This document shows positions 6,222 to 32,629 of a stretch of DNA of 35,919 bases, piece after piece. The stretch comes from Acholeplasmataceae bacterium (GTDB taxonomy: Bacteria > Bacillota_I > Bacilli_A > Acholeplasmatales > Acholeplasmataceae), in assembly GCA_012515785.1 (NCBI GenBank), contig JAAYXR010000077.1:1-35919 (forward strand), given 5' to 3'. Both the position numbers and the translations under genes were made by a program. The notes beneath the pieces are model-generated. The model saw nothing but the letters and a program-made list of their open reading frames with translations, did not search any database and was not told the DNA's origin. The stretch's first letter is position 1. The number at the start of each line of letters is the position of its first letter.

Positions 6222-6250
6222 TTGAAAAAGAAAACGTTTTCATATATAAT
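6222..6250 (+). promoter_or_regulatory. Promoter P1 of the glucan locus: TTGAAA (6222-6227), 17-nt spacer, TATAAT (6245-6250)
   Basis: Near-consensus sigma-A elements directly upstream of the first SBP gene. Confidence 0.85.
6230..6241 (+). promoter_or_regulatory. Palindromic operator A (GAAAACGTTTTC) in the P1 spacer; LacI/CcpA-family-type site
   Basis: Perfect 12-bp palindrome with central CG; same element at 19981-19992. Confidence 0.82.
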
Positions 6251-6264
6251 GAGATTAGTACTTA

Positions 6265-6278
6265 TCGAAACGTTTCGA
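6265..6278 (+). promoter_or_regulatory. Palindromic operator B (TCGAAACGTTTCGA) downstream of P1 -10; LacI-type site
   Basis: Perfect 14-bp palindrome; same core at 20016-20029. Confidence 0.85.
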
Positions 6279-6293
6279 GAAAGGTGGAAAGGT

Positions 6294-7781
6294 ATGAAAA
6301 AATTATTTATTGCTTTAATTTTGTTAATGCTTCCGTTTGCTTTAATTGGCTGTAATGGGAAGAATGGTAATAATGGAGATGATGATAATAAACCTCCAAT
6401 TAAAAAAGATGATGTCACGATTACATATGCAGCATGGAACTTAGCAACACCACAAGAATACAATATTGAACGTCGAATGATTAATGCGTTTATGGTTGAA
6501 AATCCTGGTGTTACGGTCGAGGTTATTGAAAGACCAAAAGTTGTTGATGAAGAAGGAAATGAAAAAGACGTAGCTTGGGATGAGTTCTTTGCAACAAGAG
6601 CGTCAGTTAATGAAATGCCTGACGTATTCCAAGTTAACCAAGTGACTAAAGTAGTTAGCCAAGGATGGGTTGAAGATGTTACTGAATTAGCTGAAGCTGA
6701 TGAAGATTTCATGAATGTTCCAGAAAACATTAGAAATACTTGCTACTTAGGTGGAAAAGCATTTTCATTACCACAAGCAGTATTCTATTTTGGTTATTTC
6801 ATTAACAGAACTGCAATTAATGAAACTGGTAGCGGAGCAATTATTCCAAAATATGGTATTACATACCAAGATTTAATGGCTGCTGCTAAGAAGAACTCTA
6901 AACCAGCAGTTTTAGGTGGCGACGCCATTAATGGTATCCAAGGAGTTAATAACATTTATGAATGGTTACCAGCTCAAATTGATCCAACTCTTGGATGGTA
7001 CACCTATAACGATACAGGATATCATTTAGATAGTGATGCTTTTAGAATTGCGATGACTGAAAACCAAAAATTCTTTGGCCCTAATAAAAATGAGTATGCG
7101 AGTTATGTTTTTGAAACTCAAGAAAATCGAGAAGACTTATATGGAACCGGCGATGCGTTTGCCAATGGTAAACAATCAATTCGTTGGGGAGGTTCATTTA
7201 ATATTAGAGGTTGGGTTGGTGGAACTACTAATCCAGAACACGGTTTATATGGACACGACATCGACTTTATTGGAACACCATCATGGGAAGTAAACGGAGT
7301 TAAGACTCACCGAATTCCAGTAGTAATGGATTATATTGGTGTTGGAAAAGGAACTAAACATAAAGAAATCGCCTTTAAATTTGCTAAATGGATGGGCTAT
7401 GGTGCTGATGGATTTAGAAAACGTATTGAAATTGCAACTAATAACCCTGAGGCTGGAGCGATTAACTTTGCCCCAGTAGTAAGAGATCAAGAATTATTAG
7501 ATGCATACTTTGCCCTATATCCAACAATGACTGAATATCGTAAGATTGTTGAGACACACCAAGATTTCATTATTGAATCACTACATAAGATTGTTCCAGG
7601 ATATACCAATAGTAGATGGTCAGGTCAATATGATGCTGAAAATACTATTGATAATGCTTTAATTAAAATTAGAAACGGAGAGCTGGCATTAGCTGATGCC
7701 CTAGCTGCAGGATTAAATAGAAGAGTTAACGAGGAATGGGATTTAGCTAAACAAGAGCTAGATAGAATACTAAACGGATAG
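6294..7781 (+). CDS. ABC-transporter extracellular solute-binding lipoprotein (SBP 1)
   Basis: Lipoprotein signal MKKLFIALILLMLPFALIGC; SBP features YAAWNLATPQEYNIERRMINAFMVENPGVTVEVIERP, MPDVFQVN, AFKFAKWMGYG; ATG at 6294 preferred over 6222, which lies inside the promoter. Confidence 0.9.
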   Translation: MKKLFIALILLMLPFALIGCNGKNGNNGDDDNKPPIKKDDVTITYAAWNLATPQEYNIERRMINAFMVENPGVTVEVIERPKVVDEEGNEKDVAWDEFFATRASVNEMPDVFQVNQVTKVVSQGWVEDVTELAEADEDFMNVPENIRNTCYLGGKAFSLPQAVFYFGYFINRTAINETGSGAIIPKYGITYQDLMAAAKKNSKPAVLGGDAINGIQGVNNIYEWLPAQIDPTLGWYTYNDTGYHLDSDAFRIAMTENQKFFGPNKNEYASYVFETQENREDLYGTGDAFANGKQSIRWGGSFNIRGWVGGTTNPEHGLYGHDIDFIGTPSWEVNGVKTHRIPVVMDYIGVGKGTKHKEIAFKFAKWMGYGADGFRKRIEIATNNPEAGAINFAPVVRDQELLDAYFALYPTMTEYRKIVETHQDFIIESLHKIVPGYTNSRWSGQYDAENTIDNALIKIRNGELALADALAAGLNRRVNEEWDLAKQELDRILNG

Positions 7782-7799: not shown

Positions 7800-10730
7800 A
7801 TGAAAAAGATTTGGTTGGTTGTATATTTAACATTAATTTCGGGTTTGATTTTTTTATCGAGCCCTCATCTTAATGCCAAAAATACCGCAACTCAATCTGA
7901 AAGCCTTGGTTTAGAAGAAACTACCGAATTATCTTATTTTGATGTTGAGCCTAAATGGCGAAAAGAAGGATTAAGAGACGATAACGCTCTTAATTTAGAA
8001 ATTTCGCCTTTAGGCTTTTTTGAACCTAAAGTAATTTATGCTGATGAAGAAAAGGGTGACGTTTTAAAAGTCGATGAACTTTCTTCTAAAGTTGAATTTA
8101 ATGTTGATGTTCCTAAAGCTGGACTATATACATTAAATTTTGAATATAAGGCAATTACTGAATCGGTTAGAAATATTGAAGTATCAATTGTAGTTAATGA
8201 TATCTCACTTTATAAAGAAAGTAAATCAATCATTATTCCAACTTTTTATGATAATTCAAAAGAAATTATTCAAGATCGTTACGGAAATGATATTATGCCA
8301 GTTTCCAATAGATATGAAACATGGACTAATTTTACCTTAAAAGATACACAAAGATTAGTTGAAGATGTTTTACTATTTAAGTTAAATAGGGGAATTAATA
8401 AAATTTCAATTATAAGACAAAACGGAGATTTCTTATTATCTAAGGTAACAGTTAAAAATAAAAAAATATTACCAACATATAAACAATATTTACCAAATAA
8501 TGACGCGTTAAATATTGAAAAAGGGTTTATTAAAACTTTAGAAGCGGAGCAACCACTATATAGAAACTCATTATCGATTAGATATGGTACTGATAGAGAG
8601 AAAAATGTGACTCCGTTTGCTCTTCAAAAACAACGATTAAATATCGTTGATGGTGGTAACTTTCAAACTGGTGGGCAAGCTTTATATTATGATGTTAAAG
8701 TGGAAAAGGCTGGATATTACTATATCACTTTAAAAACGAAACAACTCCAAAACTTCCAAACTAGTTTTAGAAGAATTACGATTAATGGTGAAGTACCATT
8801 TGAAGAAGCGAATTTAATTCCATTTAAAAATCATAAGAAATGGGTTAACTCGACGATTGGAAAAGACGGAGTTGACTATTTATTCTATTTAAAAGAAGGG
8901 AAAAATAGAATTGGAATTGAAGTTAACGTTTCTCCGTTTGCGAAAATCCATCAAAACTTAAATAAAGTTATGATTGGGGTTAACGATATTAGTTTAGATC
9001 TTAAAAAGTTAGCTGGTAGTACTACTGATAAAAATAGAGAATGGGATATTTTAAGTTATCTTCCAAATGTTGTTGATGAACTTCAGTACTATTATGATTT
9101 GTTAGTTGAGTCGGAAAGATTATATCAAGAGATTAACGGTTCAACTAAGGTTAATGAAACTATCTCAGCAATTAAACAAAGTTATGAAACTTTAGAAAAA
9201 CTAATTAAAAAACCTAATACATTACCAAAAAATATTGATAAATTGTCAACTGATTCCAATTCAGTTACCGCTAAAATGGGTTTAGTTATTCCGTTAATTG
9301 TTAGATCACCATTATCAATTGATAAAATATACGTTCATGGGAATACTAAATTGCCAAGACCAAATGCCAACGCGTTTGAGTCTATGTGGTTAGGAATTAA
9401 AAGATTTTTCTTATCATTTTTCAATAATGAATATAAACCAACTAAAAATAGTGAAGTTTTAGAAGTGTGGGTTAACCGTTCACGTCAGTACGTGAACGTG
9501 ATGCAAGAAATGGCTGATGCCACATTTACTAGAGAAACAGGAATTAAAGTTAATATTTCACTAATGCCTGATGAAGGCAAATTAATTATGGCGGTCTCAG
9601 CTGGTTCACAACCAGATGTCGCCTTAGGGGTCTCAGGATGGAGACCATATGATTACGCTTTAAGAAATGCAGTTGCGGATTTAAAACAATTTTCGAACTT
9701 TAAAGAAGTTTCAAAAAGATTTAATGAAGGCGCATTTTTACAATTAATTTATGAAGACGGAGTGTATGCACTTCCGGAAACTCAAAACTTTAATCTATTA
9801 TTTTACCGTGAAGATATTATGAATAAATTAAACATCGAAATTCCTGATACTTGGGATGATGTTTTATCAATTCTTCCGGAGCTTCAACGATATGGATTAA
9901 ATTTCTTCGCTCCATTATCAACTACTGGAGCTTTTAAGGGGTTCGTTCAAACGATGCCGTTTATTAAACAGCATCAAGGTAAAATTCACTCTGATGATGC
10001 TTTAAGGACGACCATTGATTCAGAAGAAGTCATTAAAGCGATGACTTTGATGACCGATTTATATACTATATACTCCCTACCGCTAGAAGTCGGCTCATTT
10101 TATAACAGTTTTAGATATGGTGATATTCCAATTGGAATTGGTGATTTTGGAATGTATGTTAGACTTTTACACGCGGCTCCAGAAATTGCTGGACTTTGGA
10201 AAATTGCCAAATTACCAGGAGTCCTCCGTTCTGATGGGGTAGTGGACAGGTCGTATGACGGGGCTTCCACTAGTGGAGTAATTTTTGAAAAGTCAAAGAA
10301 AAAAGAAGATGCTTGGAAGTTTTTAGATTGGTGGACTAGAGATGATACTCAGTTAAACTATGCCAATAACTTAATTAACTCAATGGGTCCAGAATATATG
10401 TGGAATACATCTAATGTGAACGCATTTAAAGATATGGCATGGGATGAACTTGATAAACAAGTCTTCTTAGACCAATGGCAATGGGTTAATGATACTGAAA
10501 AAACACCAGCATCATATATGATTGAACGCGAGCTGTCGAATGCTTGGAACCGAGTCGTTTTTGACGGAATTAATGTTAGAACGGCAATTGAGGATGCGAC
10601 AGTTACCATAAATAAAGAAATTACTAGGAAAATGAAAGAGTTTGGCTATCTTGATAAAAATGGTAATCACATAAAGACCTACAAGATACCTACCAAAGAT
10701 AGGTTAGGAGAGATTTTATGGGATGAATGA
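7800..10730 (+). CDS. Large SBP: signal peptide, two N-terminal carbohydrate-binding-like beta-sandwich regions, C-terminal SBP_bac_1-like domain (SBP 2)
   Basis: C-terminal [39 protein letters not shown] ... [35 protein letters not shown] ... [16 protein letters not shown]-terminal repeats [25 protein letters not shown] and [25 protein letters not shown] resemble CBM6/35-type folds. Confidence 0.88.
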
Positions 10731-11685
10731 CGTAAAGAAAACATCAAAGGTTAAAACCTTCTTTCAAAAAATTAAATTAAGATTTAAAAAGATTGGTGAT
10801 AAGCACGGCGAAGGATTACTTGGAACTACCTTCATCGCTCCTTACGGACTAGCCTTTTTAGTTTTTATCGTTATTCCGGTATTTATGGGAATCTTTTTGT
10901 CATTTACTACCTTTAATTTAATTGAGTCACCGCGATTTAGTGGTTTAAATAACTATGTTAACTTACTAACTGTTGATGAGAAGTTTATGCAAAAAGTTGT
11001 CCCAAATACGATTGTATTTGCCTTCTTTACCGGTCCAGTTGGTTATGCCCTTTCGTTTTTCTTAGCTTGGCTTTTAGCTCAAGTGCCAAGAAGATCAAGA
11101 ACGGTTTTAGCCTTAGCTATTTATTCACCATCAATGACCGCAGGAGTCGCGATGAGTGTGATGTGGAAAATTATCTTTTCTGGTGATAGATCAGGTTATA
11201 TGAATTCAGTTTTACTTAAAATGGGGTTAATCTCCCAACCAATTCAGTGGTTAACTAACCCAACATATTTAATGCCAATTATGATTGTCGTAACGATTTG
11301 GGGTAGTATGGGAATTGGTTTTTTAGCGATGCTAGCGGGAATTTTAAATGTTAACCCAGAATTATATGAAGCCGCCTATGTTGATGGTATGAAAAGTAAG
11401 TTCCAAGAAATTATTTATATTACGATTCCTTCAATGAAGCCACAAATGTTATTTGGTGCCGTCATGAGTATTGTTGGAACTTTCAATGCCGGAGCGATTG
11501 GGGTCTTACTCTCAGGAACCAACCCAACGCCACAAGATGCCGGACAATTAATTGTCACTCATATTGATGATTATGGTTTTAATCGGTTTGAAATGGGATA
11601 TGCGGCCGCAATTTCGGTTGTTTTATTAATTATGGTTTTATTAATGGGCCGAATTGCGAGAAGATTATTTACAGAAAGGGATTAA
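10723..11685 (+). CDS. Sugar ABC transporter permease (MalF/UgpA-like), pair 1
   Basis: Six hydrophobic segments; [29 protein letters not shown] loop. Confidence 0.93.
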
Positions 11686-11689
11686 GATT

Positions 11690-12562
11690 ATGGCAAGTTT
11701 TAGCGGAACCAAAATAAATCCATCTAAATTACATATATCGCAATGGAAGTTTTTCATTATCTTAATTCCAGTTGCCATTTTTATGGTGCTTCCAATTGTC
11801 TATATTATTAATCATGCCTTCAAACCAGTTGAAGAACTTTTCTTATGGCCACCACGATTTGTCGTGAAAAATCCAACAGTTTCTAACTTCGTTGAGTTAT
11901 TTGCCCAAACTTCACGAACTGGGGTGCCGATGAGTAGATACTTATTTAATAGTATCGTAATTACTTTAACGTTAGTAGTAGTCTCAATTATTCTTTCATC
12001 AATTGCGGGCTATGCATTATCTAAGTTAAAGTTTAAACTCAAAAAACCATTATTATTCTTAAACAATATTGCGTTAATGTTTGTGGGATCAAGTGTTGTC
12101 ATCCCGCGTTATTTAGTAATTGAAAAGTTAGGATTAATTAACAACTTTTTTGTCTATATTTTACCAGCAATTGCAATGCCAGTTGGGTTATTTTTAATTA
12201 AACAATTTATTGACCAAATTCCTGATGAATTAATTGATGCCGCCAAAGTTGATGGCGCTTCTGATTTCAGGATTTACTGGTCAATTGTCTTACCTTTAAT
12301 TAGACCGGCGATTGCAACTATTGCGATTGTGGCCTTCCAAGCTGCTTGGAATGATTCATCAATTGCCTCAACTTATATTGATGATGAATCACTTAAAAAT
12401 TTTGCCTTTTATATGACAACCTTAACCGGAGCTACTAGCGTTGTTTCTGGTCAAGGAATGGCGGCGGCAGCATCGCTCATTATGTTTATTCCTAACTTAG
12501 TTATCTTTATCTTCTTACAACGTAATGTGATGAATACAATGTCACATTCAGGAATTAAGTAG
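11690..12562 (+). CDS. Sugar ABC transporter permease (MalG/UgpE-like), pair 1
   Basis: EAA loop ELIDAAKVDGASDFRIYWSIVLPLIRPAIAT; ATG at 11690 just after the upstream stop preferred over 11654. Confidence 0.93.
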   Translation: MASFSGTKINPSKLHISQWKFFIILIPVAIFMVLPIVYIINHAFKPVEELFLWPPRFVVKNPTVSNFVELFAQTSRTGVPMSRYLFNSIVITLTLVVVSIILSSIAGYALSKLKFKLKKPLLFLNNIALMFVGSSVVIPRYLVIEKLGLINNFFVYILPAIAMPVGLFLIKQFIDQIPDELIDAAKVDGASDFRIYWSIVLPLIRPAIATIAIVAFQAAWNDSSIASTYIDDESLKNFAFYMTTLTGATSVVSGQGMAAAASLIMFIPNLVIFIFLQRNVMNTMSHSGIK

Positions 12563-12570
12563 GTGATATT

Positions 12571-14562
12571 ATGAAGAAAATACTATTAACTTTATTATCA
12601 CTAATCTTAATTGTCGTTTTAATTCCTAATCTCAAAGTATCAGCAGATTCACAAACCTCTGCCCCTTACGATACTTATACAACTGGTCCAAATGGAAGAA
12701 TTATTAAAACGCAAACAGCGTATGAACCAGCCGGAGCAATTAAAATTGGACTTCGCAGTCCCGAAGATCTTTATTTAAAAGATGATATTATTTACATTGC
12801 CGATACCGGCAACAAAAGAATTTTAAAGTACCACTTAGATGGTACTACTGAAGTAATTGTAACTAATTTATCGGAACCTACCGGAGTTCATGTTGACGAA
12901 GAAGATTATATTTATGTCGCTGATAAAGGAGCAAGAGCGGTAGTTAAGTTTGATAAATTCGGTAATAAAGTCAAAACCTTTGAAAAACCAACGGAATTAA
13001 TCTTTGGAACCTCTCCTTACATCCCACTTAAGATAGTAACCGGACCAAAAGGGTTACTATACGTAGTGGGAGAGGGGTCCACAGCAGGTTTAATTCAACT
13101 CTCTTACAATGGCGAGTTTCAAGGATTTTTTGCCGCTAATGAAACAAGAATGAGTTTCGTTCAAAAAGTAGCTAACTTCTTTAAAGTTTCATCAGCGAGT
13201 AATATTCCAGTATCACCATCAAATGTAGCAATTGATGAAAAAGGTTCGATTTATACCGTTAGTAACACTTTTAAAGATAAAACTAAAAAGTTTAATATTG
13301 CTTCTGAAACAATTTTAAAAATTAATTCGGATTTAGTACCAAATTCAATTCATATTAACGAATTTAATAATATTTATGTCTTAACGAATGAAGGTTATAT
13401 TAATGAATATGACCAATATGGTAATATCATTTTCGGTTTTGGTGGTTTAGATACCGGAACGAAACGTTTAGGTTTATTTGTCACTCCAGTTGATATTACC
13501 ACTGACTCTAATCATAATATTTATGTTTTAGATAAAGGGTTAAATGAAATTCAAATTTTCCAACGTAGCGAGTTTACCGCTTTAGTTCATGAAGGATTAA
13601 AAAACAATAAAGATGGTATTTATGATATTAAGCAGTGGGAAGAAGTTTTAAGGATGAACTCGATTTTCTCGGTGGCAAATAGCGCCATCGCTAGAGCGGA
13701 ATACCGGAACCAAAATTATCGTGAAGCGTTAGAATATTATAAGATTGCCACTGACAAAGTTGGCTACAGTGAAGCGTATTGGCAATTAAGATATGATTTT
13801 ATGCAACGCCATATGTTAACGATTTTAATTGTCTTTATCGTTTTATATGTTTTAGTTGCCTCAGTTAAATTTGCTGATCGAAAATGGGGCACTTTCTATT
13901 TTGTTCATGACTTTACTAAAAAAGTTAAATCAAAGAGAAGTGTTAGTGAGTTTTTATTACTATTTAAGATGTTTAGACACCCAATTGATACCGTTCATGA
14001 TGTAAAAAGATATCAAAAATCAAGTAAGAAAACCGCAACAATTATCTATGTGTTATTTGTTGTGGTAATGATTTTATCAAGATATTTAGAATCATTTATC
14101 TTTAGCACGGTTAATTTTGAAAGATTTAATGTCTTTAAAGATGCCTTGATTTTATTTGGGATTGTCTTTTTATTCGTGATTTCTAACTATTTAATTAGTA
14201 GTCTTCAAAATGGTGAGGGTTGGTTAAAAGATGTCTATATTGCGACTAGCTACACGCTAGCCCCAATTATCGTCTTTATGCCGTTTATCACTTTAATGTC
14301 ACATGCCTTAACTTTAAACGAGATGTTTATTTATCAGGCGGCTAATTATATTATCTATGGTTGGGTTTTACTTAACTTAATTATTATGATTAAAGAGGTT
14401 CATAATTATACGATACCTCAATTAATTGGAAATATTTTATTAACTATCTTTACGATGATTATTATTGTAGTGATTGTGGCTTTAATTATCATTTTAGGGA
14501 ATCAACTTTATGAATACGTAAGCGGCATCATAAAAGAGGTGATACAGAGTGTATACATTTAA
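12571..14562 (+). CDS. Exported NHL-repeat beta-propeller protein with C-terminal YIP1-like multispan membrane domain
   Basis: Signal peptide; repeated IYIADTGNKRILKYHLDG / IYVADKGARAVVKFDKFG / IYVLDKGLNEIQIF NHL motifs; TPR-like YREALEYYKIATDKVGYSEAYWQ; several TM segments after residue ~410. Confidence 0.85.
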   Translation: MKKILLTLLSLILIVVLIPNLKVSADSQTSAPYDTYTTGPNGRIIKTQTAYEPAGAIKIGLRSPEDLYLKDDIIYIADTGNKRILKYHLDGTTEVIVTNLSEPTGVHVDEEDYIYVADKGARAVVKFDKFGNKVKTFEKPTELIFGTSPYIPLKIVTGPKGLLYVVGEGSTAGLIQLSYNGEFQGFFAANETRMSFVQKVANFFKVSSASNIPVSPSNVAIDEKGSIYTVSNTFKDKTKKFNIASETILKINSDLVPNSIHINEFNNIYVLTNEGYINEYDQYGNIIFGFGGLDTGTKRLGLFVTPVDITTDSNHNIYVLDKGLNEIQIFQRSEFTALVHEGLKNNKDGIYDIKQWEEVLRMNSIFSVANSAIARAEYRNQNYREALEYYKIATDKVGYSEAYWQLRYDFMQRHMLTILIVFIVLYVLVASVKFADRKWGTFYFVHDFTKKVKSKRSVSEFLLLFKMFRHPIDTVHDVKRYQKSSKKTATIIYVLFVVVMILSRYLESFIFSTVNFERFNVFKDALILFGIVFLFVISNYLISSLQNGEGWLKDVYIATSYTLAPIIVFMPFITLMSHALTLNEMFIYQAANYIIYGWVLLNLIIMIKEVHNYTIPQLIGNILLTIFTMIIIVVIVALIIILGNQLYEYVSGIIKEVIQSVYI

Positions 14563-20001: not shown

Positions 20002-20014
20002 GGTAGTAGTAGAA

Positions 20015-20030: not shown

Positions 20031-20054
20031 AGGTTAAAAGGAGGAAAAGAATCT

Positions 20055-22846: not shown

Positions 22847-22881
22847 ATAAAAGGCGCATGCTAACTACATGCGCCTTTTAT
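22847..22881 (+). terminator. Strong intrinsic terminator/attenuator hairpin inside the locus
   Basis: ATAAAAGGCGCATG-CTAACTA-CATGCGCCTTTTAT, 14-bp perfect stem, 7-nt loop. Confidence 0.82.
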
Positions 22882-22895
22882 TTAATTACTTGATA

Positions 22896-24107
22896 ATGAA
22901 ATCGACTGAAATAATTAAAAAAATTGAAAAAACTGCAATTAAGTTCTTTTCAAAATATACTAACTTAAATGAAAACCAAACTGGATATGGTTTAACGATA
23001 GATAGTACCAATAATTTAGATGTTGCTACAATTGCCGGTAGTGGCTTCATGTTATCCAGTTTAATTATAGCTGATAAAAGAGGATATCTTGAAAGAGATG
23101 AAGCAATCAAGATAGCGAGGAATACCCTTAAAAACTTTTATGACAACATTAGTCATTATGAAGGGTTTTTTATCCATTTCGCTAATTTTAAGACTGGCCA
23201 AAGATATAAACTTTGCGAGTATTCAACGGTTGATACGATGATTTTTTTGTGCGGAGCGATTGCAGTTGATAGTTATTTTCAAGATGAAGTAATTAATAAA
23301 TATTTTAAGAAGTTAATTAATCGAATTAATTTTCCAAAATTTGTTCATATAAAAGATGGTAAGCCAACCTTTTATATGGCGTATAACCCCGACCGTCAAG
23401 GTCAATATGTTAGAGGTGAACCAGGATTTATTCATCACTGGTCAATGTTTGCTGAACAATTACCACTATATGTAATCTATGCCGGATTAGGATATGAAAA
23501 TGCCCTTGATGTTTATCACAGTTTTAAGCGCGTTAAAGGTTCGTATAAAGATATTGAATATATTTATACCCCAGGTAATGCATTATTTGTTTATCAATAT
23601 CCACTTACATTTTTAGATTTAGAAAAAATTTGTGATGATGAAGGTATCAACTGGCATGATAACGCTAAAAAAGCAATCTTAGCTCATCAAAGGCTTGCCG
23701 TGGATATTAGTGATATTTATTCATCTTTTAACAAATACGCTTTTGGGTTTACTGCGGGAATGACTAAAACTGGATATCAAGTTTTCCGCGGTTTACCAAA
23801 CATTGAAAATAAATATGCCACCGATGGTACAGTTCATCCGAATGCCATCGTCGGATCACTTAGTATTGCTAATGAGATTACTGTACCGGGAGTCGAATAT
23901 TTATATAACAAACCTAACTTATTCCAAGAATACGGATTTGTTAGTGGTTATAATGAGGATCAAGACTGGGTGGCTAGTTGCTATTTATCAATCGACAAAG
24001 GATTAGAGATGTTAATGGCTAATGCCTACTTATCTAATGATGTTAGAAGGGCATTTATGAACCACGAAATTATTAAAAAAGGACTTAAAGCATTAAAATG
24101 GGAGTAA
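22896..24107 (+). CDS. Cytoplasmic glucoamylase-like (PF10091-type), GH144-like enzyme without signal peptide
   Basis: YGLTIDSTNNLDVATIAGSGFMLSSLI, GFFIHFANFKTGQ, EYSTVDTMIFLCGAIAVDSYF, FVYQYPLTFLDLEKICD, TDGTVHPNAIVGSL mirror the lipoprotein paralogue; the annotated start 22869 falls inside the terminator stem, 22896 is preferred. Confidence 0.8.
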   Translation: MKSTEIIKKIEKTAIKFFSKYTNLNENQTGYGLTIDSTNNLDVATIAGSGFMLSSLIIADKRGYLERDEAIKIARNTLKNFYDNISHYEGFFIHFANFKTGQRYKLCEYSTVDTMIFLCGAIAVDSYFQDEVINKYFKKLINRINFPKFVHIKDGKPTFYMAYNPDRQGQYVRGEPGFIHHWSMFAEQLPLYVIYAGLGYENALDVYHSFKRVKGSYKDIEYIYTPGNALFVYQYPLTFLDLEKICDDEGINWHDNAKKAILAHQRLAVDISDIYSSFNKYAFGFTAGMTKTGYQVFRGLPNIENKYATDGTVHPNAIVGSLSIANEITVPGVEYLYNKPNLFQEYGFVSGYNEDQDWVASCYLSIDKGLEMLMANAYLSNDVRRAFMNHEIIKKGLKALKWE

Positions 24108-25642
24108 TTTATCAAATCTATCCCTTAAGCTTTTTAGATACCAATCAAGATGGTATCGGCGATATTAGGGGGATAATTCAAAAAATTAAATACCTAAAAG
24201 AATTAGGAGCCCAGTATATTTGGATTACTCCGATTTTCAAGTCTCCAATGGAAGATAATGGTTATGATATCAGTGATTATTATAAAATTCACCCAATGTT
24301 TGGTAATATGGATGATTTAAAAGAATTAATTAGTATTGCTAAAGAACACAAAATAAAAATTATTTTAGATTTAGTGTTAAATCATACTAGTACTAAACAC
24401 CATTGGTTTAAAGAAGCTAAAAAAGATATTAATAGTAAATATCACGATTATTACATTTGGAGTAATAATCCACCAAAAATTGATTCGATCTTTGGTGGTT
24501 CGGCTTGGGAATATATTAAGAAGATTGATAAATACTATCTCCATATGTTTTCTATAGGCCAAGCCGATTTAAACTGGAAAAATAAACAGTTAAGAGAAGA
24601 ACTATATCAAATGATTAATTACTATATTGATATGGGGGTTGGTGGCTTTAGATTAGATGTTTTAGATTTAATCGGAAAAGATTTAGAAAATAATAATTTA
24701 TATAATAGCGATTTATTATTAACTTATTTAAAAGAACTAAACGAAAGATGTTTTAAAGGAAAAGATATTTTTACTGTCGGTGAGATGAATTTACCACTTG
24801 AAAGAGCTCACTACCTAAGTAAAAATGAAATATTAACGACAGTATTTCAATTTAACCATATTGCCTTAGATGAAGTAGCGGGTAAAGGCAAATGGGAACT
24901 TAAAAAACTTGAATTAAATGATTTAAAGAAAGTACTAAATCAAATTCAAGAAGTTTATCAAAAAGATGGAATGCCGTCACTATTTTGGTCAAATCACGAC
25001 CAACCGCGAGCCCTTGGTAGGTATTTAAATTTAGACTATCGTTACTACGGACAAACAATGTTATTTATGCTTATGTATTTACAAAAGGGACATATCTTTA
25101 TTTATCAAGGCGAAGAATTTGGTATGTCAGGACTAGGCAAAGTAGGGATCGATAAATATCAAGATATCGAGGCAATCAATTATTACAATATTGCCATTAA
25201 GACTAAACCGGTTGAAGAAGTATTAGAAAGTTTATCAGTTAAAGCCAGAGATCATGCGCGAACACCAATGCAATGGAATGATTCGAAGTATGCTGGTTTT
25301 TCACAAGTTAAACCGTGGATGGATGTTAATCAAAACTACCATGAGGTTAACTTTGAAAAAGACTATTATAGCGAAAAGTCAATTTATAAATTTTTGAAAA
25401 AATTATTAGAAATTAGACAAAATAATTCGGTATTTGATAAAGGTTTATTTAAACCAGTTGATTTAGGAAAACACATCTTTGCCTATGAAAGAGTGTTAGA
25501 AGATAACTATTTAGTAGTGTGCAACTTTAGTGATAAAAACCAACCATTTAATAAAATTAAAGGTGAAATTTTACTAAATAATTATAACGATATAAATGGC
25601 GTATTAAGGCCTTATCAAGCGTTATTAATTAAAAGGAGGTAG
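24098..25642 (+). CDS. GH13 alpha-glucosidase (oligo-1,6-glucosidase / exo-alpha-glucosidase-like), cytoplasmic
   Basis: GH13 signatures IIQKIKYLKELGAQYIWITPIFKSPMEDNGYDISDYYKIHPMFG, DLVLNHTS, GFRLDVLDLIGK, VGEMN, SNHDQPR, ARDHARTPMQWN. Confidence 0.92.
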   Translation: MGVIYQIYPLSFLDTNQDGIGDIRGIIQKIKYLKELGAQYIWITPIFKSPMEDNGYDISDYYKIHPMFGNMDDLKELISIAKEHKIKIILDLVLNHTSTKHHWFKEAKKDINSKYHDYYIWSNNPPKIDSIFGGSAWEYIKKIDKYYLHMFSIGQADLNWKNKQLREELYQMINYYIDMGVGGFRLDVLDLIGKDLENNNLYNSDLLLTYLKELNERCFKGKDIFTVGEMNLPLERAHYLSKNEILTTVFQFNHIALDEVAGKGKWELKKLELNDLKKVLNQIQEVYQKDGMPSLFWSNHDQPRALGRYLNLDYRYYGQTMLFMLMYLQKGHIFIYQGEEFGMSGLGKVGIDKYQDIEAINYYNIAIKTKPVEEVLESLSVKARDHARTPMQWNDSKYAGFSQVKPWMDVNQNYHEVNFEKDYYSEKSIYKFLKKLLEIRQNNSVFDKGLFKPVDLGKHIFAYERVLEDNYLVVCNFSDKNQPFNKIKGEILLNNYNDINGVLRPYQALLIKRR

Positions 25643-25647: not shown

Positions 25648-26604
25648 ATGGCTACGATTAAAGATGTTGCAAAACTAGCAGGGGTGTCGATTTCTACGGC
25701 ATCATTAGCATTAAACGATTTACCAAATGTTAGTAAAAAAACTAAAGATAAAGTTTTAAAGGCGGCTGAAGAGTTGGGGTACCACCCTAACTTAAATGCA
25801 AGATCACTAAAAACTAATAAAACCGGAAATATTGGCGTTTTTATTTACGGATTTGGTGGTCCGATATTTTCGGATCTACTTGAAACTATTCATATGGAAC
25901 TATTAAAGGAAGGATTAAATTTAGTAGTATCAACAGGCAAGAGTTCGTCCGAACTTTTAAAAAATAAACAAGTTGATGGAGCGATTATTTTTGACACAAA
26001 AATAACTGATGAAGAAATTATTTCTTTTGCTAGAACTAAACCAGTAATTGTTTTAGATAGAAATTTAGAACATGAAAATGTTTTTTGTTCAGTTGTAAAA
26101 AACAAACAAATGGTTTATGAATTAATTAAACAAATGATTAAAAAAGGATATAAAAAGTTTTCTTATGCCAGCGGACCAAAACGGACTAAAGACAATCAAG
26201 ATAGATATGAAGGATTCTTAAAAGCTTTAGAAGAAGAAAAAATCATACCACACTTACAATTTGTTGGGAACTTCACCATTGAAAGTGGATATGAAATTGG
26301 TGAGTCAATCGCTAAAATTGATGATAAACCAGATTTTATCTTTTGTGCCAATGATGAGATGGCTGTAGGGTTAATTAGAGCGCTAAAAGATAATAAAATT
26401 CAAATTCCTCAACAAATAGCTGTGGCCGGATTTGATGGTATTTATTTGGGTGATTACATCACCCCGAAATTAACTACCATTAAAGTTGATTATTTAAATT
26501 GGGGAGTCTACATTTCTCAAAAAATGATTTTATTAGTTAAAGGCCATGATGTTTATGATATGAAAGAGCCTAAAGCTGAAATTATATATAAAAAGAGTAC
26601 ATAG
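25648..26604 (+). CDS. LacI-family transcriptional regulator
   Basis: MATIKDVAKLAGVSISTASLALNDLPNVSKKTKDKVLKAAEELGYHPNLNARSL; periplasmic-binding-like sensor domain; AGGAGG Shine-Dalgarno. Confidence 0.96.
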   Translation: MATIKDVAKLAGVSISTASLALNDLPNVSKKTKDKVLKAAEELGYHPNLNARSLKTNKTGNIGVFIYGFGGPIFSDLLETIHMELLKEGLNLVVSTGKSSSELLKNKQVDGAIIFDTKITDEEIISFARTKPVIVLDRNLEHENVFCSVVKNKQMVYELIKQMIKKGYKKFSYASGPKRTKDNQDRYEGFLKALEEEKIIPHLQFVGNFTIESGYEIGESIAKIDDKPDFIFCANDEMAVGLIRALKDNKIQIPQQIAVAGFDGIYLGDYITPKLTTIKVDYLNWGVYISQKMILLVKGHDVYDMKEPKAEIIYKKST

Positions 26605-26642: not shown

Positions 26643-29600
26643 ATGATTATTAAAAACAAATTAAATGTTTATTCAATTGGTAATGAATTAAAAATTGATG
26701 TTTTACCCTCGGGTGATATCTATAAAATTTATTATAAAGATCAGATGATTAATCAATTAAGAGGAAACTTAATTGATGGAATGACATCTAATATTTATTT
26801 AAGAAACACCAAAACTAAAGAATTTGCGCCATTACTTGGTTTAAAGAGTAATACTTTAAAGACGACTTTATTAGATAATCAAATCCTTTATGAAGGAACC
26901 GCCTTAAACGTCAAATATGAAGTATTATTATCAGTTAAAGATTTTGTTTATACTTATCAAGTGAGCTTATCAGGTCATGGTAAGTATGAATTATATTTTA
27001 CTCAAGATATTGGTTTAAATAGCCAAGGGGCTATTTTAAACAATGAAGCATATAATGCGCAATATGTTGACCATCGTATATTTAATACTGAAAAAGGATT
27101 TGTTACTTTATCAAGACAAAACCAAGGTCAAAATGATTTATTACAAATCGGCTCTAATTATGAAATTAGTAGTTATTCTACTGATATGTTGCAGTTTTAC
27201 GGTTTGCAATATAAAAAAGATAAAGTTATTTTAGGTTTAACTAAAGATGAATTGGAAAATCGCAACTTACAATATGAAATGCCATTAATCGCTTTAAAAA
27301 CTAAAGAGTTTGATTTAAAGAAAACAGTCATTTCTTTTTATGGGAAGTATGTTCCAAATCATGAAGTGATTTTAGATAAACCATTTGATCATGAAGTTAA
27401 ATATATTGAAAAAAATAAAGAAATAAAAGAATTAAAATTTATTAAACCATTAATTGGTAGTCAAATTAATGGTAAAAGAGTTAAACATCCATCGCAAAAT
27501 CGAGAGTTTGTTGAATATAACGAAAGAAAAGAAGTTATTGCCTTCTTTGATAACAACAAACACGTGGTGATGAAAGAAAAAGAACTAGAAACTCAAAGAA
27601 CCCATGGTCATTTAATGATCTCAGGTGATTTATTACATGCTGGAACAACAATGGCAGTAACTAACTTTATGAACGGAGTGTTTGCTAGTAGAATTGTTGT
27701 CGGAAATACTAATTTCCATCGGTTAAATGGTGATCTAAGAAATCAACTATATGCTGAATCAATTTCCGGATTAAGAATATATCTTAAATGTGAAAATAAG
27801 TGGCATAGACTAGGAATTCCTAGTTACTATGAAATGTCTTTAAGTAAAACCACCTGGGTTTATGCACTTGAAGATGATACCATTGAAATAGATTATTATG
27901 TGGCATTAGATAAAAATTGCCAACAATTAGTATTTAAATCTAGAAATAAGATTAAATACGATATTTTGTTTACTAATCAGTTATTACTTGGTAATAATGA
28001 ATATGAATCAAAAATACAATTAAATATTAATAATGATGAGACAATCATTAAATTTAATGATAATCCATTAGTGAATGATAACTACCCAAATTTAAAATAT
28101 AAAATTTCATCAAAAAATGTTAAATATACTACTGATAAAGTATTTTTTGGTGAAGAAATGGGACACGGCTTAATGGTTATGGAATATGAAAAACAAGATA
28201 AAGTCGTTATTAATATTGAAGGGACATTAGATGAATTTATAAGTCAAAAAATAGATTTTGAAAAAGAATATTTAAAATATGAAAATTTCATCAAAGATTT
28301 AATCTCAATTGAAATTAAAAACGATAATGAAATATCAAATAAGTTTAATAAGACTTTGTATTGGTTTACTCATAACGCGTTAGTTCACTATTCTAGCCCT
28401 CATGGTTTAGAACAAACCGGAGGTGCAGCATGGGGGACAAGAGATGTGATGCAAGGACCATTCGAGTTATTTTTAGCATATAAAAAATATGATATCGCCA
28501 GAGAAATCTTACTTAAAGTTTACTCGCGCCAATTTATTGAAAATTATGATTGGCCGCAATGGTTTATGTTTGATAAATATTATTATATTCAAGCCCATGA
28601 TTCACATGGTGATATTATTGTTTGGCCATTAAAAGCGTTAGCTGATTATTTGCTGATTACTAATGATTATGACATTTTAAGTGAAGAAGTTACATACTTC
28701 TCAAAAGATAAAAACGTCTTTACAAAGCCAGATACCATTTTAAATCATGTTAAAAATCAAATTAAGGCAATTGTTGATAGTTGTATACCTAAAACATCAC
28801 TTCCTAAGTATGGTGGTGGTGATTGGAATGATACTTTGCAACCAAAAAATAAAATGTTAACTGAAAAAATGGTTTCAACTTGGACCGTAAGTTTAATCTA
28901 TCAAGCGTTTAATAATTTTAGTAAGTGTGTCAGTAAAATTGATCAAGACTTGTCTAATTTGATTAACGAATTTTTAACTAATCTTAAGCGTGATTATGAA
29001 AAGTATATTATGATTGATAATAAACCAGCCGGTTTTATTATCTTTGAAGATGATAAGCCAAGACCACTACTTCATCCAAATGATGATAAAACTAAAATCT
29101 CATATCGACTCTTATCATATCAAAGGCCAATTATTGCCGAGTTAATCAACGATGAACAAGCCGAACTTAACCATGAGCTAATGTTAAGACATTTAAGATT
29201 TCCAGATGGAATGCGATTGATGGATACGCCAGTTACTTATAGAGGCGGTCAAAAGACTTTATTCCAAAGAGCGGAAACGGCATCTAACTTTGGCCGTGAA
29301 GTTGGAATCTTATATGTTCACGCCCATATTAGACATTTGGAATCACTAGCTAAATTAGGTAAGAGTGATGATTTATTATATGAATTCCAACAAATAAATC
29401 CAATTGGAATTAATAAGTTTGTTAAGATTTCTAATTTAAGACAATCAAATGTTTACTTTACCTCAAGTGATGCTAATTTCTATGATCGATATGAAGCGCA
29501 AGAAAACTTTAAAGAATTAAGAGACGGAAAAGTAAAAGCTAAAGCTGGATGGAGATTATATTCAAGTGGACCTGGTATTTATATTAATCAATTAGTGTCA

Positions 29601-29861
29601 AATTACTTTGGAATTAGACAATTAAATAATAAACTATATTTAGATCCAACTCATAATTTGGATCAATTAGAAATTGAGTTTAAATATAAAGGTAAAGCTA
29701 TTTTAGTTAAATATTTCTTTAATCAAGATAGTGATTCTTTAGTAATTAATGGTAATAAGGTAAATATCAAAAGAACTAACGAGTTTTACCGAAAAGGTGG
29801 ATATTTAATTAATGATGAATTATTAAATGAGAATAATGTATTGGAACTACATTATAAATAA
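26643..29861 (+). CDS. GH94 phosphorylase, probable 1,2-beta-oligoglucan phosphorylase (SOGP-type)
   Basis: 1072 aa, without signal peptide; HYSSPHGLEQTGGAAWGTRDVMQGP, DSHGDIIVWPLKALADYL, YGGGDWNDTLQP (GH94 catalytic-Asp region), MDTPVTYRGGQKTLFQRAETASNFGREVGILYVHAHIRH. Confidence 0.85.
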   Translation: MIIKNKLNVYSIGNELKIDVLPSGDIYKIYYKDQMINQLRGNLIDGMTSNIYLRNTKTKEFAPLLGLKSNTLKTTLLDNQILYEGTALNVKYEVLLSVKDFVYTYQVSLSGHGKYELYFTQDIGLNSQGAILNNEAYNAQYVDHRIFNTEKGFVTLSRQNQGQNDLLQIGSNYEISSYSTDMLQFYGLQYKKDKVILGLTKDELENRNLQYEMPLIALKTKEFDLKKTVISFYGKYVPNHEVILDKPFDHEVKYIEKNKEIKELKFIKPLIGSQINGKRVKHPSQNREFVEYNERKEVIAFFDNNKHVVMKEKELETQRTHGHLMISGDLLHAGTTMAVTNFMNGVFASRIVVGNTNFHRLNGDLRNQLYAESISGLRIYLKCENKWHRLGIPSYYEMSLSKTTWVYALEDDTIEIDYYVALDKNCQQLVFKSRNKIKYDILFTNQLLLGNNEYESKIQLNINNDETIIKFNDNPLVNDNYPNLKYKISSKNVKYTTDKVFFGEEMGHGLMVMEYEKQDKVVINIEGTLDEFISQKIDFEKEYLKYENFIKDLISIEIKNDNEISNKFNKTLYWFTHNALVHYSSPHGLEQTGGAAWGTRDVMQGPFELFLAYKKYDIAREILLKVYSRQFIENYDWPQWFMFDKYYYIQAHDSHGDIIVWPLKALADYLLITNDYDILSEEVTYFSKDKNVFTKPDTILNHVKNQIKAIVDSCIPKTSLPKYGGGDWNDTLQPKNKMLTEKMVSTWTVSLIYQAFNNFSKCVSKIDQDLSNLINEFLTNLKRDYEKYIMIDNKPAGFIIFEDDKPRPLLHPNDDKTKISYRLLSYQRPIIAELINDEQAELNHELMLRHLRFPDGMRLMDTPVTYRGGQKTLFQRAETASNFGREVGILYVHAHIRHLESLAKLGKSDDLLYEFQQINPIGINKFVKISNLRQSNVYFTSSDANFYDRYEAQENFKELRDGKVKAKAGWRLYSSGPGIYINQLVSNYFGIRQLNNKLYLDPTHNLDQLEIEFKYKGKAILVKYFFNQDSDSLVINGNKVNIKRTNEFYRKGGYLINDELLNENNVLELHYK

Positions 29862-29875
29862 AAAAGGTAATAAAT

Positions 29876-30577
29876 ATGGAAACTGTAAAATATAACGAAA
29901 GTTTAGAATTAGATGAATATATTGTTGGTAGTGATACTTGTTTAATTTATTTTCATGGTGGCGGATTAGAAGCGGGATCAAAAAAAGAATTTAATAAGTT
30001 AGCTTTAGTTTTAAATGAAAACGGAATTGATTGTTACTTGCCTAATTACCGCTTATATCCAAATGCGAAATATCCGGACTTTATTTTAGATGCGGCAGAA
30101 GCGGTAGCTTATGCATTAAATAAAAGAAAATATAAAAAAGTAGTTATTGGTGGAACTTCAGCTGGTTCTTATTTAGCGATGATGTTATATTTTGATAAAA
30201 GATATTTAGCAAAATATAATATTAACTCTGAAAAGATTAATGGTTATGTCTTTGATGCTGGTCAACCAACAGTTCATTTTAACGTATTAAGAGAGTACGG
30301 AATGAATCATAAGCGAATTATTGTTGATGAAAGAGCACCAATGTATTATTTAAATGAAAAAGTTGATTCTGATGTTGAATTTTTAGTTTTCTATGCTGAA
30401 TTTGATTTAAATACGAGAAGAGAAGAAATTGAACTTTTAAAACATTTAATGATTAATTATGGATATAAAAAGGAAAACTTAAACTTTCATTACATGGTAA
30501 ATAATAGACATTGTGAGTATACTCCAACCGATTTCTTTAATGAAACAGTTTTAGAGTTTATTAAAAAGTTAAGGTGA
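29876..30577 (+). CDS. Alpha/beta-hydrolase (HSL/esterase-like), candidate carbohydrate esterase
   Basis: YFHGGGLEAGSKKEF oxyanion motif; GGTSAGSYLAMML nucleophile elbow; NNRHCEY near C-terminus. Confidence 0.85.
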   Translation: METVKYNESLELDEYIVGSDTCLIYFHGGGLEAGSKKEFNKLALVLNENGIDCYLPNYRLYPNAKYPDFILDAAEAVAYALNKRKYKKVVIGGTSAGSYLAMMLYFDKRYLAKYNINSEKINGYVFDAGQPTVHFNVLREYGMNHKRIIVDERAPMYYLNEKVDSDVEFLVFYAEFDLNTRREEIELLKHLMINYGYKKENLNFHYMVNNRHCEYTPTDFFNETVLEFIKKLR

Positions 30578-30583
30578 TTAACT

Positions 30584-32629
30584 ATGATTAAGGAAATACT
30601 TGAAAAGTTAACGTTAGAGGAAAAGTTAGGACAATTAACGATGATTCCTCCTTTTTTCTTTATTAAGGACTTGAAAAAAGAAGTATTTGGAGCTTTAACT
30701 AGTTTAAAACTAGATGAAGAAGGGGTTTTTAAAACAGGATCGGTATTAGGAATCCAAAGCCATGAAGAAATGAACGTAGTTCAAAAGAAATATTTAGAAA
30801 AGTCAAGACATCAAATTCCGCTTATTTTTATGGGAGACGTTATTCATGGTGCGGTAACGATTATGCCAACTCCATTAGCTCAAGCTTCATCATTTAATCC
30901 CAAGTTAGTTAATAAAGGTGCCGTTGCTTCAGCAAGTGAAGCGTTAAAAAAAGGACTTCAAGTAACTTTTTCACCAATGTGTGATTTATCACGTGATCCA
31001 AGATGGGGCCGTGTCGTTGAGTCTTATGGTGAAGATCCTTATTTAAATTATGTAATGGCCAAAGAAACAGTTAAAGGGTATAAAAGTGAAGGGTTGCTTT
31101 CGTGTGTGAAACACTTTGCGGCATACGGCCTTTCAGAAGCGGGGCAAGATTATAATACAGTTGATTTATCAAGATTAAATTTATTTGAATATTATTTAGC
31201 GGGATATCGCGGCGCGATTGAAGGCGGTGCCGATATGGCAATGACATCATTTAATACTTTTGAATATATTCCTGCCACAACTAATAAATATTTACTGCGT
31301 GATGTGTTAAGAAAAGAATTGAAATTTAAAGGAGTTACTATCTCTGATTATGATTCCCTACTTCAAACAATATATCACCGGACATCATCATGTGATTGCG
31401 ATGCCGCGATTAAAGGAATCAAAGCGGGATTAGATATTGAAATGGCAACTAGTTCATATATGAGATGTTTAAAAGAAGCGGCCGAAAAAGATCCGAAACT
31501 TTTAAAATTAATTGACGAAGCAGTCTTAAGAGTTTTAAAGTTAAAAGAAAAGGCGAAACTTTTTGATGATCCATATCGGACTAGACATTTATCAATTGAT
31601 TCAAGTCGTGCGATGGATGCGGCATATAATTTAGCTAAAGAATCAATTGTCTTGTTAAAGAATAAATCTTTACCTATAAAAAGACGAACTAAAGTATCAT
31701 TACTAGGAAAATACGCGACAGAAAAACATGTTTTGGGACCTTGGAGTTGGCATGGCGATCCAAAAGATACTGATGAGTTAGCAGAACATATTAATGCTGG
31801 TTATCTTAATAGTTCTGAGTATTTTGATGACTATGATATTGAAAGTATTGAAAAAACTGATCATATTATTTTAGCGATTGGCGAGCTATATCATGAGTCT
31901 GGAGAAGCGCATAGTAAGGCTGATGTCAACTTATCTAATCATTATATAGAATTATTAGAAGATTTAAGAAAATTAAAGATTCCAATTACGGTTATCTTGT
32001 ATACAGGTCGTCCTCAAATTTTAACTAAAGCTCTACCATTAATTGACAATTTATTAGTTCATTTTCATCTTGGTACAACCACCTCTAAAGTGGTAGCTGA
32101 TACTATTTACGGAATTAATAATCCAAGTGCGCGTCTACCAATGACATTCCCAAGACATCAAGGACAAATTCCAATCTATTATAATCGTCTTTCTACGGGG
32201 CGACCATATTCTAAAACTAATCCTTACACTTTAAAATATTTGGATGTCCAAAACGAACCACTATTTGAATTTGGTTATGGGTTGAGTTATTCTAATTTTG
32301 TTTATTCAAATTTAGAATTATCAAATAATCAAGGTGATCTTAAATCACTACCTTCGGTTAAAGTAACCGTAACTAATGATAGTAATATTTCTGGTAAAAC
32401 TAGCGTTCTTTTATATATTAGAGATGAGTTTGCGTCAATCGCAAGACCAGTTAAAGAGTTAAAACAATTTAAAAAAATCTCACTTAAACCACATGAGTCT
32501 AAAGTAGTAGAGTTTAAACTAACAAAAGATGATTTATCATTTTATAACCAAAATTTAAAAAAGATTGTCGAGCCCGGAGACTTTACAATCTTAATTGAAA
32601 ATTTAGCAACGAAATTTACTTTAAATTAA
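30584..32629 (+). CDS. GH3 beta-glucosidase, cytoplasmic
   Basis: LTLEEKLGQLTMIP, FSPMCDLSRDPRWGRVVESYGEDPYL, CVKHFAAYG, GVTISDYDSL nucleophile region, C-terminal FnIII-like domain. Confidence 0.95.
   Translation: MIKEILEKLTLEEKLGQLTMIPPFFFIKDLKKEVFGALTSLKLDEEGVFKTGSVLGIQSHEEMNVVQKKYLEKSRHQIPLIFMGDVIHGAVTIMPTPLAQASSFNPKLVNKGAVASASEALKKGLQVTFSPMCDLSRDPRWGRVVESYGEDPYLNYVMAKETVKGYKSEGLLSCVKHFAAYGLSEAGQDYNTVDLSRLNLFEYYLAGYRGAIEGGADMAMTSFNTFEYIPATTNKYLLRDVLRKELKFKGVTISDYDSLLQTIYHRTSSCDCDAAIKGIKAGLDIEMATSSYMRCLKEAAEKDPKLLKLIDEAVLRVLKLKEKAKLFDDPYRTRHLSIDSSRAMDAAYNLAKESIVLLKNKSLPIKRRTKVSLLGKYATEKHVLGPWSWHGDPKDTDELAEHINAGYLNSSEYFDDYDIESIEKTDHIILAIGELYHESGEAHSKADVNLSNHYIELLEDLRKLKIPITVILYTGRPQILTKALPLIDNLLVHFHLGTTTSKVVADTIYGINNPSARLPMTFPRHQGQIPIYYNRLSTGRPYSKTNPYTLKYLDVQNEPLFEFGYGLSYSNFVYSNLELSNNQGDLKSLPSVKVTVTNDSNISGKTSVLLYIRDEFASIARPVKELKQFKKISLKPHESKVVEFKLTKDDLSFYNQNLKKIVEPGDFTILIENLATKFTLN

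Follow-up and report, generated by a model that had tools for sequence, protein, structure and literature searches.

A probable beta-1,2-glucan utilization locus with a four-permease uptake cassette in a wall-less Acholeplasmatales bacterium

Which polymer is degraded by a sugar locus whose automatic gene names include 'glucoamylase' and 'alpha-amylase', and how does that polymer enter the cell? The locus occupies about 26 kb of the window, a 35,919-nucleotide stretch of an Acholeplasmataceae genome (contig JAAYXR010000077.1). It is very probably a LacI-controlled catabolic regulon for beta-1,2-glucans from other organisms, carried by a wall-less bacterium of the order Acholeplasmatales; this reading starts from gene content, protein families, conserved catalytic residues, conserved gene order and operators, all read from the sequence.

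All genes lie on the + strand and neighbouring genes are separated by −38 to +38 bp, with a sole exception of 110 bp at 19945–20054. This arrangement is far beyond chance: around 20 related genomes of the order keep the locus as a unit, at 35–85% protein identity. The genes named in the first-pass annotation were all recovered on this strand and in place, with strong Pfam matches. Its start of the locus at 6222 is an open-reading-frame artefact within a promoter, the −35 element of which (TTGAAA) lies at 6222 and the −10 element of which ends at 6250; the probable start is the ATG at 6294, preceded by a ribosome-binding-like stretch. Additional to that annotation are genes for an NHL–Yip1 protein (12571), a DUF5696 protein (14549), an Ig-like/CBM4_9 lipoprotein (20055), a GH13 enzyme (24098) and an alpha/beta-hydrolase (29876), as well as two promoters, a LacI operator pair at each, and the four-permease, seven-gene form of the transport half.

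A hairpin resembling an intrinsic terminator (6123–6141, + strand; AAGCCCCGAAAAGGGGCTT, then a T-rich tail) closes the upstream unit. Promoters P1 (6222–6250) and P2 (19973–20001), both on the + strand, have the form TTGAAA-17-TATAAT, with 11/12 consensus matches each. Overlapping them are two predicted, unstranded LacI operator pairs: O1 (6230–6277), with GAAAACGTTTTC at 6230–6241 and CGAAACGTTTCG at 6266–6277 and an operator sitting in the spacer of P1, and O2 (19981–20028), with GAAAACGTTTTC at 19981–19992 and CGAAACGTTTCG at 20017–20028. Within the 1.04 Mb of the genome searched, the paired pattern occurred only at O1 and O2, and the control returned 0. Operator sites in other genera lie 5' of the genes for SBP1, the CBM lipoprotein or the cytoplasmic GH144; the pairs are conserved across genera. 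The expected LacI-family regulator (25648–26604, + strand; PF00356 and PF13377) is present and is conserved within the locus.

The phosphorylase gene (26643–29861, + strand) encodes a predicted GH94 enzyme of the SOGP type, with SOGP_N (E = 1e-60), SOGP_2nd and SOGP_4th domains; PF21958, PF21250, PF17167 and PF21270 each scored above the cut-off. Among solved structures LpSOGP (5h3z) is the best match: it scores 721 bits, whereas cellobiose phosphorylase reaches only 29. The SOGP-type assignment made earlier holds; membership of the cellobiose, chitobiose or laminaribiose phosphorylase clades had been set beforehand as grounds for abandoning it, and this comparison did not refute it. All 16 LpSOGP residues checked are kept, covering subsites −1, +1 and +2, the phosphate site and the acid D760; the list of substrate, phosphate and acid residues is from PMC5309861, and 13 were matched by script, with H924, Y1004 and S1005 identical in the printed alignment. 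The GH3 protein (30584–32629, + strand; Pfam E = 5e-60), a predicted sophorose-type beta-glucosidase, has Lin1840 (4zoa; 513 bits) as its top solved match. It keeps D91, R149, K191, H192, D270, E473, R572 and Y583 of the Lin1840 residues described in PMC4757417, including the catalytic D270 and E473; W271, which like R572 and Y583 belongs to subsite +1, is replaced by Tyr, as in JMB19063. With SBP2 closest to Lin1841, these matches bear out the suggested kinship to the Listeria innocua Lin1839–1841 locus.

Lin1840-type GH3 enzymes also hydrolyse laminaribiose (PMC4757417), a point against the preferred reading, and genes of the GH16 and GH161-like types occur in sister cassettes; both would fit a locus for the use of laminarin-type beta-1,3-glucan. 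We regard that as highly improbable, given the SOGP-type GH94, the two GH144 genes and the absence of GH16 from the locus. The same genome also has a separate beta-1,3 set (GH16, GH161-like and GH94-like) on contig C49 and a second DUF5696 gene, of the beta-1,3 clade, on contig C87.

Two proteins belong to PF10091. The first is a lipoprotein (18565–19944, + strand; E = 4e-59; lipobox LFGC), listed as a frame from 18535 but with a probable GTG start at 18565; it is a predicted GH144-like endo-beta-1,2-glucanase, with XCC2207 (XcSGL, 8xul) as top solved match, followed by the GH144 enzyme CpSGL. The second (22869–24107, + strand; E = 2e-37) has no signal peptide, is presumably cytoplasmic and also matches XcSGL and CpSGL; its divergence counts against the preferred reading. 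For both, the nearest solved relatives are GH144 enzymes (8xul; CpSGL 5gzh/5gzk), not members of GH162, GH189 or GH192–194, and the only other type of match was 8wy1 (named glycosyltransferase 36; E = 1e-7), to the lipoprotein copy only. The clan-defining residues of XcSGL are Glu239, the general acid, Phe286 and Tyr367 (PMC12102758). The Glu and Phe are kept in the lipoprotein as E228 and F283, and the Tyr367 position aligns ambiguously (Y345 or F348); in the cytoplasmic copy the Glu and Phe were seen by eye in the alignment. A lipoprotein and a cytoplasmic GH144-like enzyme, as first annotated, are both retained. Between them lies the gene for a further lipoprotein (20055–22838, + strand; lipobox LVAC) with an Ig-like domain (PF16403, E = 1e-27) and two CBM4_9-type domains (PF02018, E = 2e-22), probably a surface glucan binder.

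PF10091 is titled 'Putative glucoamylase', and this title, the automatic names and the GH13 gene would suggest starch or glycogen as the substrate. That reading is scarcely credible: the nearest solved PF10091 members are endo-beta-1,2-glucanases, SOGP and Lin1840-type GH3 enzymes target beta links, and the GH13 enzyme is cytoplasmic and of the alpha-1,6-oligosaccharide type. The earlier preference for beta-1,2-glucan over starch is upheld by the SOGP-type GH94, the GH3 and SBP2 resembling Lin1840 and Lin1841, and the GH144-like pair.

The transport half was first described as a solute-binding protein (SBP)/permease module. SBPs and permeases are indeed present; rather than a single module, they form two SBPs and two permease pairs. 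SBP1 (6294–7781, + strand; SBP_bac_1 E = 1e-8), with its start moved from 6222, is a lipoprotein (lipobox LIGC). SBP2 (7800–10730, + strand; 976 amino acids; SBP_bac_1 E = 1e-20) fuses a CBM35-like N-terminal part to a sugar SBP, the closest solved relative of which is the Listeria beta-1,2-glucan protein Lin1841. Permeases A (10723–11685; BPD_transp_1 E = 1e-12) and B (11654–12562; E = 8e-18) follow on the + strand, and then a protein (12571–14562, + strand) with an NHL beta-propeller (E = 9e-13), a Yip1 membrane domain (E = 2e-7), a signal peptide and, by hydropathy, around five C-terminal transmembrane segments. Beyond the DUF5696 gene come permeases C (16768–17649, + strand; E = 1e-11) and D (17646–18572, + strand; E = 1e-19), which form a single fused frame of about 626–631 amino acids in several relatives.

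This seven-gene order (CBM35–SBP, permease pair, NHL–Yip1, DUF5696, permease pair) is identical in 52 of 61 DUF5696 loci, the remaining 9 being cut off, and it ranges across Bacilli, including Paenibacillus, and one rumen bacterium of Clostridia, with the same order in Butyrivibrio. The enzyme genes that follow vary, with sets for beta-1,2-glucan, beta-1,3-glucan, peptidoglycan (in wall-less species) and NAGPA. No ATPase gene lies within the locus. Of the components of a CUT1-type importer, the SBPs and permeases are encoded in the locus and MalK/MsmX-type ATPase candidates (TOBE_2) elsewhere in the genome; in Paenibacillus, ugpC lies 5' of the same cassette. A literature search, with subscription journals outside its coverage, found no paper that joins Yip1 to ABC polysaccharide loci and no mention of DUF5696.

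The DUF5696 protein (14549–16771, + strand; PF18952 E = 6e-142) is predicted to be membrane-anchored and outward-facing, and is remotely GH129-like. Its profile matched a 3,6-anhydro-D-galactosidase (E = 1e-7) and the GH129 enzyme NagBb (E = 0.005) in the PDB. The stretch matched to GH129 ends before the catalytic residues and only two acidic columns, D261 and D/E638, are conserved (23/23 sequences), so we did not accept the protein as a clear GH129 enzyme. A beta-1,2-specific enzyme was also dropped as a candidate role because the family sits before many enzyme sets. An AlphaFold2 model built from only three sequences (pLDDT 35) was set aside. Weak DUF5696 profile matches occur in other genomes; a scan of viral contigs with a single DUF5696 protein gave no matches.

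Transpeptidases were absent from the 8 genomes searched, whereas 10 of 14 controls were positive, and the genus-mates are Acholeplasmataceae metagenome-assembled genomes without these enzymes; from this we infer a wall-less host. One alternative is that the locus remodels a beta-1,2-glucan of the cell's own instead of using a foreign one, since turnover can involve endoglucanases and phosphorylases. We judge this very unlikely here. A PF10091 search found no cyclic-glucan synthase in the genome itself or in two genus-mates that are 98–99% complete, which argues for a catabolic role; the genome itself is 68% complete, so that its absences alone are weak. The SBPs, importer and LacI control also indicate uptake. 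Elsewhere, in genome G268, the PF10091-containing cyclic-glucan synthase is a separate gene with a 2923-amino-acid frame.

Plain beta-1,2-glucan does not account for the GH13 gene (24098–25642, + strand; Pfam E = 1e-126), which counts against the preferred reading in its simplest form. The enzyme is of the glucan 1,6-alpha-glucosidase/oligo-1,6-glucosidase type, with 4aie, 2zic, 4wlc and 1uok as top solved matches; of the motifs bearing the catalytic Asp/Glu/Asp, GFR[LM]DV and NHDQ occur in 13/13 relatives, and VGEM was found in 9. A Val after the GH13 nucleophile goes with alpha-1,6 specificity; our literature search turned up no paper on this rule. Of the 19 loci with the cytoplasmic GH144, 14 also carry GH13, compared with none of the 5 that lack this GH144 (Fisher P = 0.006, uncorrected for relatedness). 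A possible, although unlikely, special case of the preferred reading is that the natural target is an alpha-1,6-cyclised beta-1,2-glucan of the CbG16alpha type (Xanthomonas, Ralstonia, Rhodobacter), which is known to exist (PMC11228985). Rings or large fragments would be imported, the cytoplasmic GH144 would open them and GH13 would remove the lone alpha-1,6 link. The enzyme type, the Val in all 13 relatives and the co-occurrence favour this; five loci with the cytoplasmic GH144 lack GH13, sugar loci commonly carry GH13 alpha-glucosidases, and uptake of DP16 rings through this type of ABC importer is conjectural. For the natural substrate more generally, the earlier preference for cyclic glucans or OPGs is a guess.

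For the beta-1,2-glucan regulon as a whole, we infer activities, locations, substrate form, importer mechanism and the roles of DUF5696, NHL–Yip1, GH13 and the esterase as follows. Surface lipoproteins (GH144, the Ig/CBM protein and SBP1) would bind and cut glucan outside the membrane. Oligosaccharides would enter through a composite ABC importer of CBM35–SBP2 and permease pairs A/B and C/D, with NHL–Yip1 and DUF5696 as outward-facing accessory parts and an ATPase encoded elsewhere supplying power. In the cytoplasm, the second GH144 may trim long or cyclic chains, SOGP would yield glucose-1-phosphate down to sophorose, and GH3 would then cleave the sophorose. The GH13 alpha-1,6-glucosidase and an alpha/beta-hydrolase (29876–30577, + strand; Abhydrolase_3 E = 3e-11), probably an esterase, probably handle features of the natural polymer other than beta-1,2 links. 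LacI would repress both promoters through the paired operators until sugar relieves repression.

The four-permease uptake cassette is undescribed, and the novelty of the locus rests on it. We put forward, with confidence evenly divided, that SBP2(CBM35)–permA–permB–NHL/Yip1–DUF5696–permC–permD is an unrecognised modular class of Firmicutes polysaccharide importer: a single composite ABC machine that combines two permease heterodimers with NHL–Yip1 and a GH129-like DUF5696 surface protein, present in several copies per genome and paired with different enzyme sets (for beta-1,2-glucan, beta-1,3-glucan, peptidoglycan or NAGPA substrates). Its role would resemble that of SusCD in Bacteroidota and would allow wall-less bacteria to subsist on polymers from the envelopes of other cells. 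If the cassette is one importer, DUF5696 could be used as an annotation marker for Gram-positive polysaccharide-utilisation loci; the cassette also singles out two uncharacterised proteins beside two permease pairs. Wall-less bacteria are usually viewed as minimal parasites, and the locus would give them a concrete route to feed on the glucans of other bacteria; organisms that make no peptidoglycan also carry related loci, for beta-1,3-glucan and even for peptidoglycan itself. Through the operator pairs and GH13, regulation and the true substrate become directly testable.

Among known systems, the Acholeplasma laidlawii GH161/GH94 laminaribiose-phosphorylase clusters have a similar cassette with beta-1,3 enzymes and thus a different substrate; ABC genes without an NBD were noted in the two clusters, one of which lacks an SBP, and that account covers permeases and the SBP but not DUF5696, NHL–Yip1 or a single cassette (PMC6484121). 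Streptomyces griseus SGR_2422–2427 (PMC12369401) likewise combines a Lin1841-like SBP, an endo-beta-1,2-glucanase, a beta-glucosidase and a predicted esterase, but has GH193 where the present locus has GH144 and GH1 where it has GH3, contains a simple transporter and is described without mention of a phosphorylase. XcSGL (XCC2207, 8xul) and CpSGL (5gzh) share family, general-acid Glu and clan Phe with the GH144 enzymes here (PMC12102758), one of which is a lipoprotein and the other of which lacks a signal peptide. Lachnoclostridium phytofermentans SOGP (5h3z; PMC5309861) shares its domain layout and all 16 checked residues with the GH94 enzyme, which differs in its divergent sequence and wall-less host. 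Listeria innocua lin1838–lin1843 (PMC3960220, PMC4757417) has in common the LacI regulator, SOGP, Lin1840-type GH3, Lin1841-type SBP and a permease pair, and likewise contains no cyclic-glucan synthase; the Acholeplasmatales locus adds two GH144 enzymes, the CBM lipoprotein, GH13 and the esterase, and has a larger transporter, with a second permease pair, a CBM35-like SBP fusion, NHL–Yip1 and DUF5696.

Sixteen genes lie on the plus strand between 6294 and 32629, separated by short gaps and preceded by a terminator-like hairpin (6123-6141). Further upstream, a choloylglycine-hydrolase/AAT-type linear amide hydrolase (2604-3839) follows a tRNA-Ser; downstream and convergent with the locus, a YolD-like protein adjoins a Y-family DNA polymerase (32624-34247, minus strand). 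The assembly is 1.04 Mb in length and 68% complete, and its close relatives are Acholeplasmataceae MAGs (G003 and G057 from the same genus, G040 from the same order). Acholeplasmatales are reported to be peptidoglycan-deficient (PMC10868615); the transpeptidase PF00905 was absent from this genome and seven related genomes, and present in 10 of 14 control genomes.

The GH94 protein carries every SOGP (1,2-beta-oligoglucan phosphorylase) domain in Pfam. Its closest solved structure is LpSOGP (721 bits across ~1040 residues; the next, cellobiose phosphorylase, scores 29 bits), and all 16 LpSOGP residues of subsites -1, +1 and +2, the phosphate site and the acid (PMC5309861) are identical, which upholds the SOGP-type assignment of the first-pass annotation. 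The two GH144-like proteins proposed there are likewise supported: both PF10091 proteins match the GH144 enzymes XcSGL and CpSGL; one is a lipoprotein (probably 18565-19944) and the other lacks a signal peptide (GH144cyt, 22869-24107). The GH3 protein is nearest to Lin1840 and retains the catalytic pair together with the remaining four residues of subsite -1. It also has Arg572, which carries the greatest weight for sophorose; the position of Trp271 is occupied by Tyr, as in JMB19063 (PMC4757417). A GH13 gene between GH144cyt and LacI, missing from the earlier gene list, has glucan 1,6-alpha-glucosidases as its best relatives.

In the proposed mechanism, the lipoprotein GH144 and a CBM lipoprotein would bind and cut glucan outside the cell, and the substrate-binding proteins (SBPs) would capture the sugars for import by permease pairs driven by a shared ATPase, for which candidates are present elsewhere in the genome. 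Inside the cell, GH144cyt would shorten the chains, SOGP would release Glc1P and sophorose by phosphorolysis, and GH3 would split the sophorose. Judged by predicted topology, both DUF5696 and the NHL propeller probably point out of the cell, where they may keep the polymer close to the membrane. DUF5696 is remotely similar to GH129-like enzymes and is at most a candidate enzyme itself.

The two top-scoring promoter-like matches of the region (6222-6250 and 19973-20001; 11 of 12 matches each) both have GAAAACGTTTTC inside the spacer and CGAAACGTTTCG 24 bp beyond. Position 6222, at which the first-pass annotation began the locus, therefore belongs to a promoter-like site and is not a gene start. 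Promoter-like matches in general were not commoner than in shuffles (59 versus 66), so it is the operators that count: nowhere else in this genome does the paired pattern appear, and a control pattern had zero matches. For AAACGTTT, the core taken singly, enrichment within the window is only mild (6 versus 2.1 expected; 4 of 100 shuffles equally high). In many loci of relatives, ATCGAAACGTTTCGAT or near forms lie immediately ahead of SBP1, of the CBM lipoprotein gene or of GH144cyt. The natural reading of these sequence patterns is that the locus's own LacI binds the paired operators.

Of the order's 131 genomes, 29 contain SOGP_N, and the gene set is mostly common to the neighbourhoods of 25 SOGP_N loci. 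One genome (G033) has SOGP separate from the GH144 genes, and the one main rearrangement places the enzymes before the transporter (genus-mate G057 and G053). Where GH144cyt is present, 14 of 19 loci also have GH13; where it is absent, 0 of 5 do (P = 0.006, relatedness ignored). A PF10091-based search revealed no cyclic-glucan synthase in this genome or its near-complete genus-mates. In a more distant relative (L091:2987-5257), a GH35 gene adjoins two GH144 genes, recalling the GH35 beta-1,2-glucosyltransferase of Ignavibacterium (PMC8861115).

The transport genes form a cassette of their own. Among 61 DUF5696 loci from many genomes, selected through DUF5696 or SOGP so that counts describe the surroundings of DUF5696, 50 have the complete order SBP2-permA-permB-NHL/Yip1-DUF5696-permC-permD, in some cases with the last two genes fused, two more were completed by six-frame search and nine end at the edge of a contig or fetched piece. 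Carrying genomes of the order have one to seven full DUF5696 matches, and the family extends to other families of the class. The same order occurs in Butyrivibrio fibrisolvens, with GH43 ahead, and in Paenibacillus cellulosilyticus, with ugpC ahead. The latter cassette (L113) is on a 509-kb plasmid; behind it, in place of glycoside hydrolases, come more SBPs and a number of LLM flavin-dependent oxidoreductases. The fusion of permC and permD into one frame of ~624-631 amino acids (G045, G085, G103, G105, G117, L085 and L099) suggests that they are partners.

Enzyme genes downstream of the cassette are of several types, some of them without an assignment: GH144/GH3/SOGP; GH16/GH161-like/GH3; NAGPA phosphodiester glycosidases; and, in Acholeplasma-type genomes, NamZ, GH3, a BadF-type kinase, a MurQ-like SIS protein and NagB, an apparent set for scavenging peptidoglycan sugars. 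The NamZ exo-muramidase type also occurs with DUF624 (L067, L069, L071, L073, L076, L078 and L080, mostly from genomes of the wall-less order), and NAGPA genes follow or precede the cassette, often several in a row (L087, L093, L095, L103 and L104). Because Pfam gave no match for the GH161-like protein, its label is based on size, neighbours and agreement with an A. laidlawii cluster (PMC6484121). On the DUF5696 tree, these types require 9 changes versus 32.5 with shuffled labels, a difference to which genome relatedness contributes; the peptidoglycan type is a single fully supported group and the beta-1,2 type takes 2 changes. Elsewhere in this genome, a GH94-like gene (848 amino acids) shares contig C49 (L112) with genes for GH16, LacI and a GH161-like protein, while contig C87 (L105) carries another DUF5696 that belongs to the beta-1,3 clade; together these are probably a separate beta-1,3-glucan locus.

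The cassette genes carry individual annotations in public records, and we found no description of the cassette, or of its reuse for several envelope polymers, in searchable papers. We conclude that this unit and its reuse are apparently the new part; the catabolic half is a further representative of a known kind, that of Listeria lin1838-1843.
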